A DNA stretch of 37,935 nt from Acidimicrobiia bacterium. Lineage in GTDB: Bacteria; Acidobacteriota; Vicinamibacteria; Vicinamibacterales; CAVVIG01. Of the stretch, positions 21,335-37,935 are shown in pieces. The notes beneath the pieces were generated by a model that saw nothing but the letters and a program-made list of their open reading frames with translations, was not told the origin of the DNA and did not search any database. Made by a program: the position numbers and the translations under genes. The stretch spans positions 1-37,935 of the forward strand of contig VFZL01000015.1 of assembly GCA_016871175.1 (NCBI GenBank), in the 5' to 3' direction. Every line of letters starts with the position of its first letter. The first letter of the stretch is position 1.

Positions 21335-21416
21335 TGCGAAAGGCGGGAGTCGAACCCGCACGGGTTGCCCCACCGGATCCTAAGTCCGGCGCGTCTGCCA
21401 GTTCCGCCACTTTCGC
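21335..21416 (-). tRNA. tRNA-Leu (anticodon UAG)
   Basis: Reverse strand from 21416. The acceptor stem GCGAAAG (21410-21416) pairs with CTTTCGC (21336-21342), followed by discriminator A (21335). The anticodon stem CCGGA/TCCGG encloses the loop CTTAGGA, giving anticodon UAG, which reads CUN leucine codons. A long variable arm (about TGGGGCAACCCGTGC) marks it as class II, and the T-loop GTTCGACTC is normal. CCA is not encoded. It lies 164 bases upstream of tig. The anticodon is UAG, not CUA, so this is not an amber suppressor. Confidence 0.95.
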
Positions 21417-34509: not shown

Positions 34510-35322
34510 CTAGTTGGACGCAGTACGGTCAGTCGAGACCGGTGTCGGCGTAACCACCGGTACGTCGAGGCGATCGCCTTGATAGAACACGCGCTCGAGG
34601 AACAGGCCAGAGGCCGGCGCCGTCAGCTTCGCCGGCAGGTCGGACCTGGAGTCAAGGAGTGAGCGCGCGGCGTCGGCCGTGAGCTCACGCCTACCCACGG
34701 CGACCAGGACGCCGACGATGCGACGAACCATCTTCCACAGGAAGTGGGATCCGAGAATCACCACCAACAGGAGACCCTCGCGCGGCTCGATTGCGAGGTG
34801 CTCCACGAGCACCAGCCTGGAGCGTCCCGCGTCCTCCGCGTCGTCATCCGCGGCTGCGAAGGATTGGAAGTCTTTCATCCCGACGAATGACGCCGCCGCC
34901 ACCTTCATCCCGTTGAGATCCAGCGGGTCCTTGACCCACCACACGAACGGTTTCGCGAACGCCGTCCGCCGCCGAGCGATCTGATAGACGTAGCGTCGCG
35001 CGACGGCGCTATGGCGGGCGTGAAAGCGATGGGGCACGACGGCAACGGTGAGGATATTGATATCGGCGGGCAGCTCGTCGTTGATGTGTCGCTGCAACGA
35101 GGCGGGCGGAAGGCCGGTTGCGATGTCGAGGTGAGCGACCTGCGCCAGCGCGTGTACGCCGGCATCCGTGCGACCGGACCCGTAGAGCTCGAAGTCCTGG
35201 CGCCCGGTGGCGGTTCGGATGGCGCGCGCGAGCTCGCCTTGGACGGTCTTGGCGTTCTGCTGAATCTGCCAGCCGCTGTACCGCGTGCCGGCATACTCGA
35301 TGGTCAGTTTGAAGCGAGGCAC
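34510..35322 (-). CDS. truA: tRNA pseudouridine synthase A
   Basis: A 270-residue TruA that makes pseudouridine 38-40 in the tRNA anticodon stem-loop. The start is GTG 35320-35322 (VPRFKLTIEYAGTRYSGWQ), the family's usual beginning, with AAGG about 8 bases upstream; the frame is open for another 91 codons, but that part has no TruA features. The catalytic Asp53 lies in GSGRTDAGVHA. Later blocks are VARRYVYQI, HFLWKMVRRIVGVLV and LPAKLTAPASGLFLERV, all typical. The stop is TAG. It is divergent from the leader region of hom. Confidence 0.96.
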   Translation of the reverse strand: MPRFKLTIEYAGTRYSGWQIQQNAKTVQGELARAIRTATGRQDFELYGSGRTDAGVHALAQVAHLDIATGLPPASLQRHINDELPADINILTVAVVPHRFHARHSAVARRYVYQIARRRTAFAKPFVWWVKDPLDLNGMKVAAASFVGMKDFQSFAAADDDAEDAGRSRLVLVEHLAIEPREGLLLVVILGSHFLWKMVRRIVGVLVAVGRRELTADAARSLLDSRSDLPAKLTAPASGLFLERVFYQGDRLDVPVVTPTPVSTDRTASN

Positions 35323-35386
35323 GGCGGATACCTTACTCGGCCGAGTTGACTTCTGCACGGCCCTGTGTTGTTCTAAGGGCTCGCCG

Positions 35387-35545
35387 ATGCGTGCGCTGAC
35401 GTTCACTCCGATCGCCGGTTGGCCGATGGGCCCATTCTTTATGTCGTGCGCCCGATCGCCGCTGCCGACCGCTATCAGGCTGCCGCTGGGCCTGCTTTTG
35501 CCGGGCCTACCTCTACTCACGAGGGATGCTATCGAGGTGATGTGA
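35387..35545 (+). CDS. Possible leader peptide, leucine-rich
   Basis: A 52-codon frame from ATG 35387, with AAGGG 7 bases upstream. Residues 31-44 (RLPLGLLLPGLPLL) contain eight Leu, several coded by the less used CTA, CTT and TTG. The stop TGA (35543-35545) is 33 bases before the terminator stem. The arrangement is that of an attenuation leader peptide, although leucine is not the expected signal for homoserine dehydrogenase. It may also be chance. Confidence 0.25.
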   Translation: MRALTFTPIAGWPMGPFFMSCARSPLPTAIRLPLGLLLPGLPLLTRDAIEVM

Positions 35546-35578
35546 CCGGTCGGACACGCAACGAAGTGAGAAGGTCCA

Positions 35579-35616
35579 GGGCCATCACCCCACACCGGGT
35601 GGTGGCCCTTTTTTTT
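35579..35616 (+). terminator. Strong intrinsic terminator / candidate attenuator before hom
   Basis: GGGCCATCACCC (35579-35590), loop cacacc, GGGTGGTGGCCC (35597-35608), then eight T (35609-35616). The stem is 12 bp with one G-U pair. It acts on forward transcripts only. The only forward gene upstream ends at 34317, more than 1.2 kb away beyond truA, so the transcript it stops must start in the truA-hom gap. Confidence 0.85.
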
Positions 35617-35630
35617 GAAGGAAGTCCGTC

Positions 35631-35807
35631 ATGTGTGCGAACCCCGCAACAGCCTCTCCCCCCACGTCGTCGTCCGACCGTGAGCCGACACCGACGCCCC
35701 CGGCGCGTTCGTCGTCCGCCGTGACGACCGCGACCTCCGATTGCGACCGGCACGAGGAGCGCCATGAAGAGACCCACGAAGAGGCCGGGTACGGCTACGG
35801 CGTGTAG
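35631..35807 (+). CDS. Possible small protein between terminator and hom
   Basis: A 58-codon frame from ATG 35631, preceded by GAAGGAAG with about 6-9 bases spacing. The product is Ser/Thr/Pro-rich in its first half and ends with a charged HEERHEETHEE stretch and GYGYGV. It has no signal peptide or recognisable domain. It begins 14 bases after the T-run, so it would be translated only if the terminator is read through. Coding status is uncertain. Confidence 0.25.
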   Translation: MCANPATASPPTSSSDREPTPTPPARSSSAVTTATSDCDRHEERHEETHEEAGYGYGV

Positions 35808-35840
35808 ACGGGTGACCAGCGACTGCTAACTATCGACCTC

Positions 35841-35888
35841 GACCAACGACCCGAATCCATGACCAACGACCCACGACCCACGATCACA
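35841..35888 (+). repeat. Degenerate heptamer array, unit ~GACCCAC, covering the hom start
   Basis: Units gaccaac, gacccga, then after a slip gaccaac, gacccac, gacccac, gatcaca. The apparent hom start codon and its first residues (TNDPRPT) are encoded by the repeat. No ribosome-binding site is seen before the ATG. Confidence 0.6.
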
Positions 35889-37136
35889 CTCGCTTTGCTC
35901 GGCTTCGGCACCGTCGGCCAGTCGGTGGTCCGCATTCTGGCCATCGGCGACGTCGCTGGTGTGGTGCTGACCCACATCTTCAATCGGCAGGTGGCGCGCA
36001 AACGTGCCGATTGGGTGCCGTCGACGGTGCAGTGGACCGAGTCCATCGACGACATCGTGAATAGCGACGCCGACATCGTGATCGAGGTGGTGGGCGGCGT
36101 GAATCCGACGGCGGAGTGGGTCCGGCGCGCGCTCGAGGCCGGTAAGTCGGTCGTGACGGCGAACAAGCAGCTCATCGCGCATCAGGGCAGCGATCTCTTG
36201 GCGTTGGCGCAGTCGAAGGGTGTCGAGCTCCGGTTCGAGGCGTCGGTCGCCGGCGGCATCCCCGTGCTGCGTGCGCTGCAGGAAGGGCTGTCGGGCGATC
36301 GCCTGGTCGAGGTGCGCGGGATTCTCAATGGGACCTGCGCGTACATCCTCAGCCGCATGCAGAAACACGGTGCGTCCTTTGCCGATGCCCTGCGTGAGGC
36401 TCAGCAGGCGGGCTATGCCGAAGCGGATCCCACAGAGGACGTTGACGGCGCCGACGCCGCGGCCAAGCTCGCCATCATCTCTGCCGTCGGTCTGCGGCGG
36501 CCGGTGAAGGTGCGTGATATCGCGACGCGGTCGATTCGACCGATCGAGACTGTGGACTTCGAGTACGCGAAGGAGCTTGGCTGCACGATCCGCCAAATCG
36601 CGCGCGCGTCGATCGACGATGGCGGCGATCGGGTATTCGCTGCGGTGAGGCCCGCACTGGTACAGCTCGCATCGGCGTTCGGACAGATCGAAGGCAGTCA
36701 GAACATCGTGTCGGTCCGCGGGGTGCACGGCGGCGAAACCACGTTCTCCGGGTCCGGCGCTGGGGGTGGCCCGACGGCGGTGGCGGTGGTGTCAGATGTC
36801 CTCTCCATTCGACGCACACTGGTGGGCGCTCCTGGCCTGGCCACGCCGATGGCGCGCCAGATCTATCCCGTCAGCAGCGATTTCGTCGCGCCACATTACG
36901 TCCGCTTCATCGTCAACGACAAACCGGGCATCTTGGCACAGGTGACGTCCGCCTACTCCAAGTTCGGGATCAACATCGACGGCGTCCTGCAATTGCCGCG
37001 ATTCCGCAAGGACCGCCTCCCGTTCGTGACGACGCTCGAAGAGTGCGCAGAGTCGATGCTCGACAAGGCGCTCGCCGAGGTCGCGCGCTCTGACTACCAC
37101 GTGCAGCCGCCGCTGGCGCTGCCGATCTTCGCGTGA
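35859..37136 (+). CDS. hom: Homoserine dehydrogenase with ACT domain
   Basis: NAD(P)-dependent enzyme of 425 residues reducing aspartate semialdehyde to homoserine, at the branch to threonine, isoleucine and methionine. Nucleotide-binding motif LLGFGTVGQS (13-22); the substrate region has SVVTANKQLIAHQG and SVAGGIPVLRAL, followed by GILNGTCAYILSRM and the GYAEADPTEDVDGADAAAKL block. The C-terminal ACT domain (about 346-425, YVRFIVNDKPGILAQVTSAY) suggests feedback control, typically by threonine. ATG 35859 lies in a heptamer repeat and has no ribosome-binding site, so the first eight residues may not be authentic, though no better start is near. A strong terminator 240 bases upstream suggests leader control. 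Confidence 0.95.
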   Translation: MTNDPRPTITLALLGFGTVGQSVVRILAIGDVAGVVLTHIFNRQVARKRADWVPSTVQWTESIDDIVNSDADIVIEVVGGVNPTAEWVRRALEAGKSVVTANKQLIAHQGSDLLALAQSKGVELRFEASVAGGIPVLRALQEGLSGDRLVEVRGILNGTCAYILSRMQKHGASFADALREAQQAGYAEADPTEDVDGADAAAKLAIISAVGLRRPVKVRDIATRSIRPIETVDFEYAKELGCTIRQIARASIDDGGDRVFAAVRPALVQLASAFGQIEGSQNIVSVRGVHGGETTFSGSGAGGGPTAVAVVSDVLSIRRTLVGAPGLATPMARQIYPVSSDFVAPHYVRFIVNDKPGILAQVTSAYSKFGINIDGVLQLPRFRKDRLPFVTTLEECAESMLDKALAEVARSDYHVQPPLALPIFA

Positions 37137-37157: not shown

Positions 37158-37935
37158 ATGGCTCAAGCACAGACGTTTAGCGAGGTGGTCGAAGCCGAGG
37201 GCCACCTCATCGACTCCCAGATCCTCAACACCGTCTTCGACGTGGTCGTGAAGAAGAACGCGTCGTTCGACGTGTTGACGTTCACGATTGGCCGACACAA
37301 CGAGGATCCGTCGTTCATCTCGATGCGGATCACCGCGAGGTCGAAGCCAGAGCTCGAAGAAGTCCTCGAGGAGCTGGTCGCCTTGGGCTGCCGGCTCTCG
37401 GACTCGCAAGATGTGACTTGTCGCACGGCTGACCGAGCCGGGTGCGTTCCGGACGACTTCTACTCGACGACGAACCATCGCACCTTCGTGCGCCTGCGCG
37501 GGCAGTGGGTGCCGGTCGAGAAGCAACGGATGGACGCCGTCATCGTCATCGAGACGAATCGCGCGTCCTGCGGGAAGCTTCGAGACGTGCGGCCGGGTGA
37601 TGCGATTGTGTGCGGTGTCGCAGGTATTCGCGTGATCCCGGAGTTTCAAGATCGCGACCGACAGGGGTTCGCGTTCATGAGCAACGAGATCTCGTCGGAG
37701 CGGCGGGTCGATGTCGTGGTGAGCCGCATCGCGGCGTTGATGCGCGAAGCGAAGGCCTCAGGCGGGAAAGTGGCCGTCGTCGCCGGTCCTGTCGTGGTGC
37801 ACACTGGAGGGGGTGTCCACTTCCAGGAGCTCGTCCGCCTCGGCTACGTGGACGTGCTGTTGACGGGAAATGCGCTCGCCGTTCATGACGTCGAGCAGGC
37901 GCTCTTCGGCACCTCGCTGGGTGTGAGCCTGGAGA
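37158..37935 (+). CDS. TIGR00300 (LOR/SDH-type) protein, ornithine cyclodeaminase-like (partial)
   Basis: Open from ATG 37158 to the right edge (259 codons), so only the N-terminal part is seen. The start MAQAQTFSEVVEAEGHLIDS fits the conserved beginning of the TIGR00300/LOR-SDH family, and later blocks CRTADRAGCVPDDFYSTTNH, MDAVIVIETN and KVAVVAGPVVVHTGGG support it. Archaeal members have been assigned ornithine cyclodeaminase activity, and related domains form the second half of the cyanobacterial arginine/ornithine enzyme. It starts 21 bases after hom on the same strand, so co-transcription is likely. The catalytic C-terminal half is outside the window, so activity is not established. Confidence 0.75.
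   Translation, partial: MAQAQTFSEVVEAEGHLIDSQILNTVFDVVVKKNASFDVLTFTIGRHNEDPSFISMRITARSKPELEEVLEELVALGCRLSDSQDVTCRTADRAGCVPDDFYSTTNHRTFVRLRGQWVPVEKQRMDAVIVIETNRASCGKLRDVRPGDAIVCGVAGIRVIPEFQDRDRQGFAFMSNEISSERRVDVVVSRIAALMREAKASGGKVAVVAGPVVVHTGGGVHFQELVRLGYVDVLLTGNALAVHDVEQALFGTSLGVSLE

Follow-up and report, generated by a model that had tools for sequence, protein, structure and literature searches.

A putative leucine-tuned leader-peptide attenuator ahead of a small tail ORF and hom in an acidobacterial genome

Locus layout and mutually exclusive helices

The window analysed here is a stretch of 37,935 nucleotides from a genome of the order Vicinamibacterales (phylum Acidobacteriota; assembly GCA_016871175.1, contig VFZL01000015.1), and its right-hand part carries a candidate transcription attenuator upstream of hom, with all attenuator features on the forward strand. 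The hom gene (35859-37136, forward strand) encodes a homoserine dehydrogenase with a C-terminal ACT domain (Pfam PF00742, PF03447 and PF01842; NCBIfam NF004976). The nearest gene upstream, assigned as truA by eye with no search, runs leftward from about 35322 and leaves 536 bases to hom. The absence of a forward gene close upstream of the terminator, stated in a first-pass annotation made from the sequence alone, thus holds, as does its terminator with eight T residues 243 bases ahead of hom. This terminator is the hairpin at 35578-35616 (13 pairs, 6-base loop, T8 run; segment energy -27.1 kcal/mol), and 243 bases separate its end from the hom ATG at 35859. No other terminator-like site was found in 34800-36000. 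However, shuffled sequences give an expected 0.6 sites, so the scan is weak on its own and the reality of the terminator rests on conservation among relatives. Segment 4, the 3' arm, together with T8 occupies 35597-35616; besides the hairpin scan, it is covered by a covariance-model match at 35531-35613 with an E value of 7.0e-9, the window itself being one of the 29 sequences in that model.

The leader peptide open reading frame (ORF), taken from the ORF list, spans 35387-35545 and has 52 codons (MRALTF...PTAIRLPLGLLLPGLPLLTRDAIEVM before the stop); its start codon is uncertain, and an AAGGG ends 7 bases ahead of the ATG at 35387. Reading of the codons showed a control region at 35480-35518 in which 8 of the 13 codons specify Leu, two of them as CTA. 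This codon accounts for 2 of the 10 Leu codons in the leader, whereas hom, the next gene and truA have 82 Leu codons and no CTA among them. The short frame with a Leu-rich end had been noticed before, and its stop lies where it was placed, with the last base at 35545 and the first base of the stem at 35578, 33 bases on. Upstream of the leader, a promoter-like element consists of TTGACT (35346-35351), 17 bases and TGTTCT (35369-35374), so that an intrinsic terminator stands between a putative promoter and the gene. The TTGAC box is conserved in relatives: of 31 testable loci, 27 have it at a distance of 60-280 bases upstream from the leader stop, versus 1 of 31 in a control stretch. A TATA-like box follows 15-18 bases past TTGAC in 12 of the 27 loci, all 12 before hom; the window has no such box.

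Alignment and folding place the antiterminator 5' strand, segment 2 (GGTGATG, 35536-35542), directly against the leader stop TGA (35543-35545), so that a ribosome at the stop would mask it. Segment 3, AGGGCCATCACCC at 35578-35590, was found by the hairpin scan and the alignment and can pair with either segment 2 or segment 4. Since the antiterminator and terminator helices use the same arm, they are mutually exclusive. The first-pass annotation had proposed another antiterminator strand, GATGGGCCC. Its one-bulge match to the 5' arm is present, but it is not conserved: four near relatives, all attenuator carriers (L002, L003, L004 and L007), were tested, and it is missing 60-190 bases upstream of the arm in each, while GGTGATG is found in all four. 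The suggested fold of 35380-35620 gave -103.7 kcal/mol (z -2.8) with the terminator formed.

Many of the relatives' hom genes are preceded by a common arrangement of GG(G/A)TGATGTAGCC, a variable linker, GGCCATCAYCC, a loop, GG(G/A)TGATGGCC and a T-run. The annotation had named a lack of conservation of the terminator in relatives as fatal to its proposal; across the 29 hom leaders of alignment A1, however, 92.9% of cells are paired in the terminator helix and 91.4% in the antiterminator helix. When the partner strand was slid by 1-3 columns, these values fell to 25-62% and 22-60%, respectively. Covariation in both helices is modest. Cells changed on both sides number 12 in the terminator (reached by 0 of 500 shuffles) and 6 in the antiterminator (reached by 6 of 500), and each helix has 3 pairs changed on both sides, a count equalled by 61 of 500 and 85 of 500 shuffles, respectively. 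The conserved parts of A1 are the pairing arms and the leader stop, whereas the sequence linking segments 2 and 3 varies.

Between the terminator and hom lies an additional ORF that the earlier annotation had not mentioned. It spans 35631-35807, has 58 codons, is preceded by GAAGGAAG and ends in EEAGYGYGV, with the GYGYGV end at 35781-35807. The attenuator had been described as controlling hom. The first gene past the terminator is instead this small ORF, and hom, 51 bases further on, is probably co-transcribed with it because no terminator was found between the two. The gene after hom (37158-37934) is cut by the window end and matches TIGR00300 (nickel-pincer nucleotide-dependent ornithine cyclodeaminase) below the whole-protein cut-off.

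Target genes, leader codons and folding

A hom search of 162 genomes of the order gave 69 with a match at E <=1e-90. The covariance model R1, built from A1, carried out the search across relatives that the earlier annotation had called for and, with stricter filters, matched 92 of the 162 genomes at E <=0.01. By coordinates, 34 of the 69 hom-bearing genomes have an R1 site directly ahead of hom, among the matches listed. In a phylum sample searched at E <=1e-4, R1 matched 21 of 42 genomes of the order and 19 of 354 others. Among 40 further sites in the order, a part of those listed, 20 precede ilvD and 8 a prephenate dehydratase gene followed by ilvD or ilvB; the rest precede tail ORFs (4), hom (2), LysR genes (2), ilvB (1) and ilvA (1), with 2 unassigned. 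These gene types were confirmed on six examples with NCBIfam and Pfam. Of 11 loci outside the order, tblastn assigned ilvB to five, ilvD to one and an ilvA-like gene to one; the others, judged by eye, are citramalate-synthase-like (2), ilvN-ilvC-like (1) and glutamate-synthase-like (1). The window genome has two R1 sites, the one before the small ORF and hom and a second (L125, G000:C20), where an attenuator with a Val-rich leader precedes a prephenate dehydratase-ilvB operon. The same attenuator type with Val/Ile-rich leaders was also observed before LysR regulators (L127 and L163, confirmed by Pfam, and L108, by eye), and once before a transporter-like gene (L105, by eye).

Leader composition was compared between classes assigned from the downstream gene and not from the leader. 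Of the 82 loci entered, 77 were located, and 68 of these have a leader frame ending within -8 to +12 bases of the start of segment 2. Fractions were taken over the last 24 codons, and for each residue set the richer candidate frame was used, alike for all classes. The leaders match their target class, with codons of the pathway end product enriched. The mean Leu fraction is 0.253 in the tail class versus 0.031 in the hom and 0.053 in the ilv class; that of Thr plus Met is 0.287 in hom versus 0.106 in ilv and 0.103 in tail leaders; and that of Val plus Ile is 0.295 in ilv versus 0.114 in hom and 0.141 in tail leaders. Each enrichment was reached by 0 of 10,000 label permutations, also in an extra run restricted to a single locus for each genus and class (38 loci), made to allow for the dependence among related loci. 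One leader of the tail class, that of L114, has a Leu fraction of just 0.125. With the richest frame chosen, the control codons lie mostly 7-19 codons ahead of the stop and are more scattered in hom leaders. Two hom leaders of family f11 (L026 and L027) are Met-rich instead of Thr-rich, which suggests that hom of this family may be under methionine control. The window leader has a Leu fraction of 0.333, whereas the maximum among 52 hom and ilv leaders is 0.125, and the leaders of L002, L004 and L007 resemble it by eye.

Taken together, 35346-35616 is very probably a transcription attenuator of the ribosome-mediated, leader-peptide kind, tuned chiefly to leucine. Of the two kinds of control that the first-pass annotation had offered, amino-acid leader control agrees with the conserved exclusive helices, the leader stop at the antiterminator strand, the pathway-matched codons and the upstream TTGAC box. 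We infer that the leader is translated, starting at about 35387. A ribosome short of charged tRNA-Leu would stall in the Leu run at 35480-35518 and hide the competing upstream RNA, leaving segment 2 free to pair with the emerging segment 3. The terminator would then not form, and transcription would continue into the GYGYGV ORF and on to hom. With ample leucine, the ribosome would reach the stop and cover segment 2, segments 3 and 4 would pair and transcription would end at T8.

Equilibrium folding of the nascent RNA follows this logic in part. For window RNA transcribed to 35593, the pairing probability of segments 2 and 3 is 0.53-0.99 when the upstream RNA is hidden to a point in 35474-35531, and at most 0.02 when the RNA is free from 35460 or earlier. 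Among 13 other loci, 12 fitted the folding search pattern (L042 did not), and in all 12 the antiterminator has a probability of at least 0.86 when the RNA is hidden to within 4 bases of segment 2.

Several observations weigh against the proposed attenuator or its details. With RNA transcribed to 35600, the hidden states of the window give a probability of just 0.05-0.67 for the pairing of segments 2 and 3, and once the whole terminator is transcribed, equilibrium folding gives 0.97-0.99 terminator in every case; the choice of the switch must therefore be kinetic. With 150 free upstream bases, six of the 12 loci (L004, L007, L012, L038, L131 and L142) still form the antiterminator at a probability of at least 0.86, and L007, L012 and L038 do so at every free upstream length; the state without a ribosome is thus not uniform. 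At L120, conversely, the antiterminator forms solely with the RNA hidden to within 4 bases of segment 2. In these models, a repressing upstream structure is clear in the window and not general. Further, the promoter-like element of the window has a poor -10 box and would give a very short 5' untranslated region. No R1 site was found before hom in 35 of the 69 hom-bearing genomes, among the matches listed, and among the eight closest hom loci, three (L005, L006 and L008) did not show the element. Finally, two of the four window-clade leaders, L002 and L007, carry Thr clusters, so the sensor may respond to Leu plus Thr.

These Thr clusters also bear on the possibility that the attenuator senses threonine, or threonine and isoleucine, on behalf of hom, with the Leu stretch and the small ORF incidental. 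Hom leaders elsewhere are rich in Thr and Met, and at L003, in another family, a hom 78% identical to that of the window directly follows an attenuator with a TTTI leader. However, the last 28 codons of the window leader contain 2 Thr versus 9 Leu, the L004 leader is Leu-dominated too, and the window leader resembles those of stand-alone tail ORFs that have no hom (L092, L096 and L120). We regard threonine sensing as unlikely; leucine, possibly together with Thr or Ile, is the most likely signal in the window, unlike the Thr/Met of the hom leaders of other families.

The two remaining explanations dispense with the leader peptide. One is that the hairpin simply terminates a small RNA made from upstream, while hom is expressed from its own promoter past 35616; this would fit a leader that is short and self-contained and a locus with no mapped promoter. 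It is very improbable given the conserved exclusive antiterminator, the position of the element before amino-acid operons and the class-specific leaders. Moreover, a generic promoter scan of 34800-36000 returned no promoter-like site, although the same scan missed the TTGACT element. A metabolite-binding riboswitch or a T-box could equally have a terminator, an antiterminator and a 5' leader, and the annotation had raised an unlisted riboswitch. However, segments 2 and 3 are joined by a variable linker, the conserved parts are the pairing arms and the leader stop, and the codon content follows the target gene. Membership in an Rfam amino-acid leader, T-box or known riboswitch family was rejected, as the gathering threshold was not reached: at gathering score, the whole window gave nothing but a tRNA at 21335-21416, and at E <=10 the region 35300-35900 gave mir-557 and ar7 alone, both far below their cut-offs. 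This explanation is scarcely credible.

The small tail ORF and the LeuA C-terminus

The protein of the small ORF matched no Pfam family at E <=1 and no NCBIfam family at E <=0.1. Its counterparts at L002, L004 and L007 share the C-terminus and little else, and six genomes of the family (G010, G012, G015, G016, G018 and G026) have a counterpart with no hom in the 1.0-1.5 kb downstream. A strict pattern of the C-terminus matched 11 of the 162 genomes (10 small ORFs and one LeuA end) and gave no match in the reversed control. A looser pattern gave 94 matches, of which one ends in TGG, in 86 of the 162 genomes, versus 16 control matches. The Gly codons of the tail use all four third bases, as expected for selection on the protein. 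Reading of 65 of the 94 matches identified 34 LeuA C-termini, including one LeuA cut by a contig end and counted by similarity (G105), and 31 short stand-alone frames. Among the matches listed, 19 of the 31 stand-alone frames and none of the 34 tailed leuA genes have an R1 site just upstream. The C-terminus GYG(H/Y/F)G(V/I) is thus common to LeuA and to small proteins (L171-L190 and L191-L220), and many of these small proteins stand under Leu-type attenuators. In 354 genomes outside the order, the pattern gave 7 matches, fewer than the 14 of the reversed control and therefore chance-like. The seven comprise two LeuA, two frames ending in TGG, which is not a stop, two chance-looking frames (G465 and G339) and one IlvE. 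This IlvE, a branched-chain aminotransferase of another family of the phylum (L243, G401:C2), ends in VGYGHGV and is a single case. In family f2, the tail proteins (L142, L144, L221-L223, L226 and L230) are longer and share an N-terminal LCQAVE...VRAVILMV...VYVDV or similar; one of them was tested and has no Pfam match.

In 31 LeuA proteins picked for the tail, G-Y-G-x-G-V is invariant and is preceded by a variable linker. One LeuA scored above the cut-off of NF002086, the 2-isopropylmalate synthase equivalog, with the match covering positions 4-383 of 516, and Pfam assigned it no domain past HCS_D2. In 30 leuA genes (L191-L220), the part that runs from the HSGR motif to the C-terminus is 58-90 residues long; the usual C-terminal regulatory domain of LeuA is longer than this. 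The LeuA of these genomes seems, from these lengths and profile matches, to lack that domain. In an AlphaFold2 model of a tailed LeuA, residues 388-406 have a predicted local distance difference test score below 50, and docking of the tail was not predicted in the monomer. None of six PDB sequences retrieved at E <=1e-60 aligned past position 388 of 413 of the LeuA profile.

The LeuA of the window genome (L211) ends in ...SEASHSSR and has no tail. A strict substitution of the LeuA tail by the stand-alone ORF was considered and rejected. The window family has 27 genomes, 25 of them with a LeuA match, 12 without an intact tail and 13 tailed (G011, G013 and G019 judged from alignment ends), and the stand-alone ORF is not exclusive to either group, being present in 7 of the 12 tail-less versus 5 of the 13 tailed genomes. 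A tentative possibility, which we hold to be somewhat doubtful, is that branched-chain amino-acid enzymes of these Acidobacteriota (LeuA, and IlvE once) carry the GYG(H/Y/F)G(V/I) tail as a tag for docking or degradation and that the small proteins are free copies of it, made when leucine is short and acting in trans on the same partner. As part of the same idea, the free tail proteins might serve as a decoy, an adaptor or a feedback protein replacing the missing allosteric domain of LeuA.

Comparison with known attenuators

The enterobacterial leu, thr and ilv attenuators (Rfam Leu_leader and Thr_leader) have a leader ORF with many codons for the regulated amino acid, a stop at the antiterminator strand, mutually exclusive hairpins and a T-run. 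The window element is alike in its leader ORF, the placement of the stop, the exclusive hairpins and the T-run. However, it matches no Rfam leader, one shared-arm consensus, GGCCATCAYCC, serves differing amino-acid specificities, and the class to which the window belongs has a small orphan ORF as its first gene.

In Actinobacteria, candidate attenuators before leuS and ilvB and a LEU element before leuA have been described (PMC1262725, as far as its accessible part goes). These candidates resemble the window element in that their leader ORFs contain runs of Leu, Ile or Val, and those before leuS also have an antiterminator and a terminator. The LEU element, by contrast, is a candidate pseudoknot, with the leuA Shine-Dalgarno box included in its base stem, and the accessible part of that paper describes no small tail ORF for the Actinobacterial elements. 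A screen of bacterial genomes for 5' terminators predicts attenuators broadly, Acidobacteria included; in the part available, almost no attenuators with assigned functions are given for the phylum of the window, and a term search of its main text returned none of the words homoserine, threonine, ilv and leuA (PMC2965389). In the open-licence PMC literature, including the accessible parts of PMC4833913, PMC2965389 and PMC1262725, we found no paper on these Acidobacteria leaders and none printing GYGHGV.

The surprising part of the finding is the tail motif. A C-terminal motif that has gone undescribed is common to the committed enzyme of leucine synthesis and to small proteins under leucine-type attenuators, and it offers a hypothesis, open to experiment, on how leucine synthesis may be regulated where LeuA has no C-terminal regulatory domain. 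The comparisons also assign likely signals (Leu, Val/Ile and Thr/Met) to an attenuator family of this phylum. The mechanism itself is known; to judge by the literature searches, its occurrence in this phylum and a single shared-arm family with several amino-acid specificities are new.
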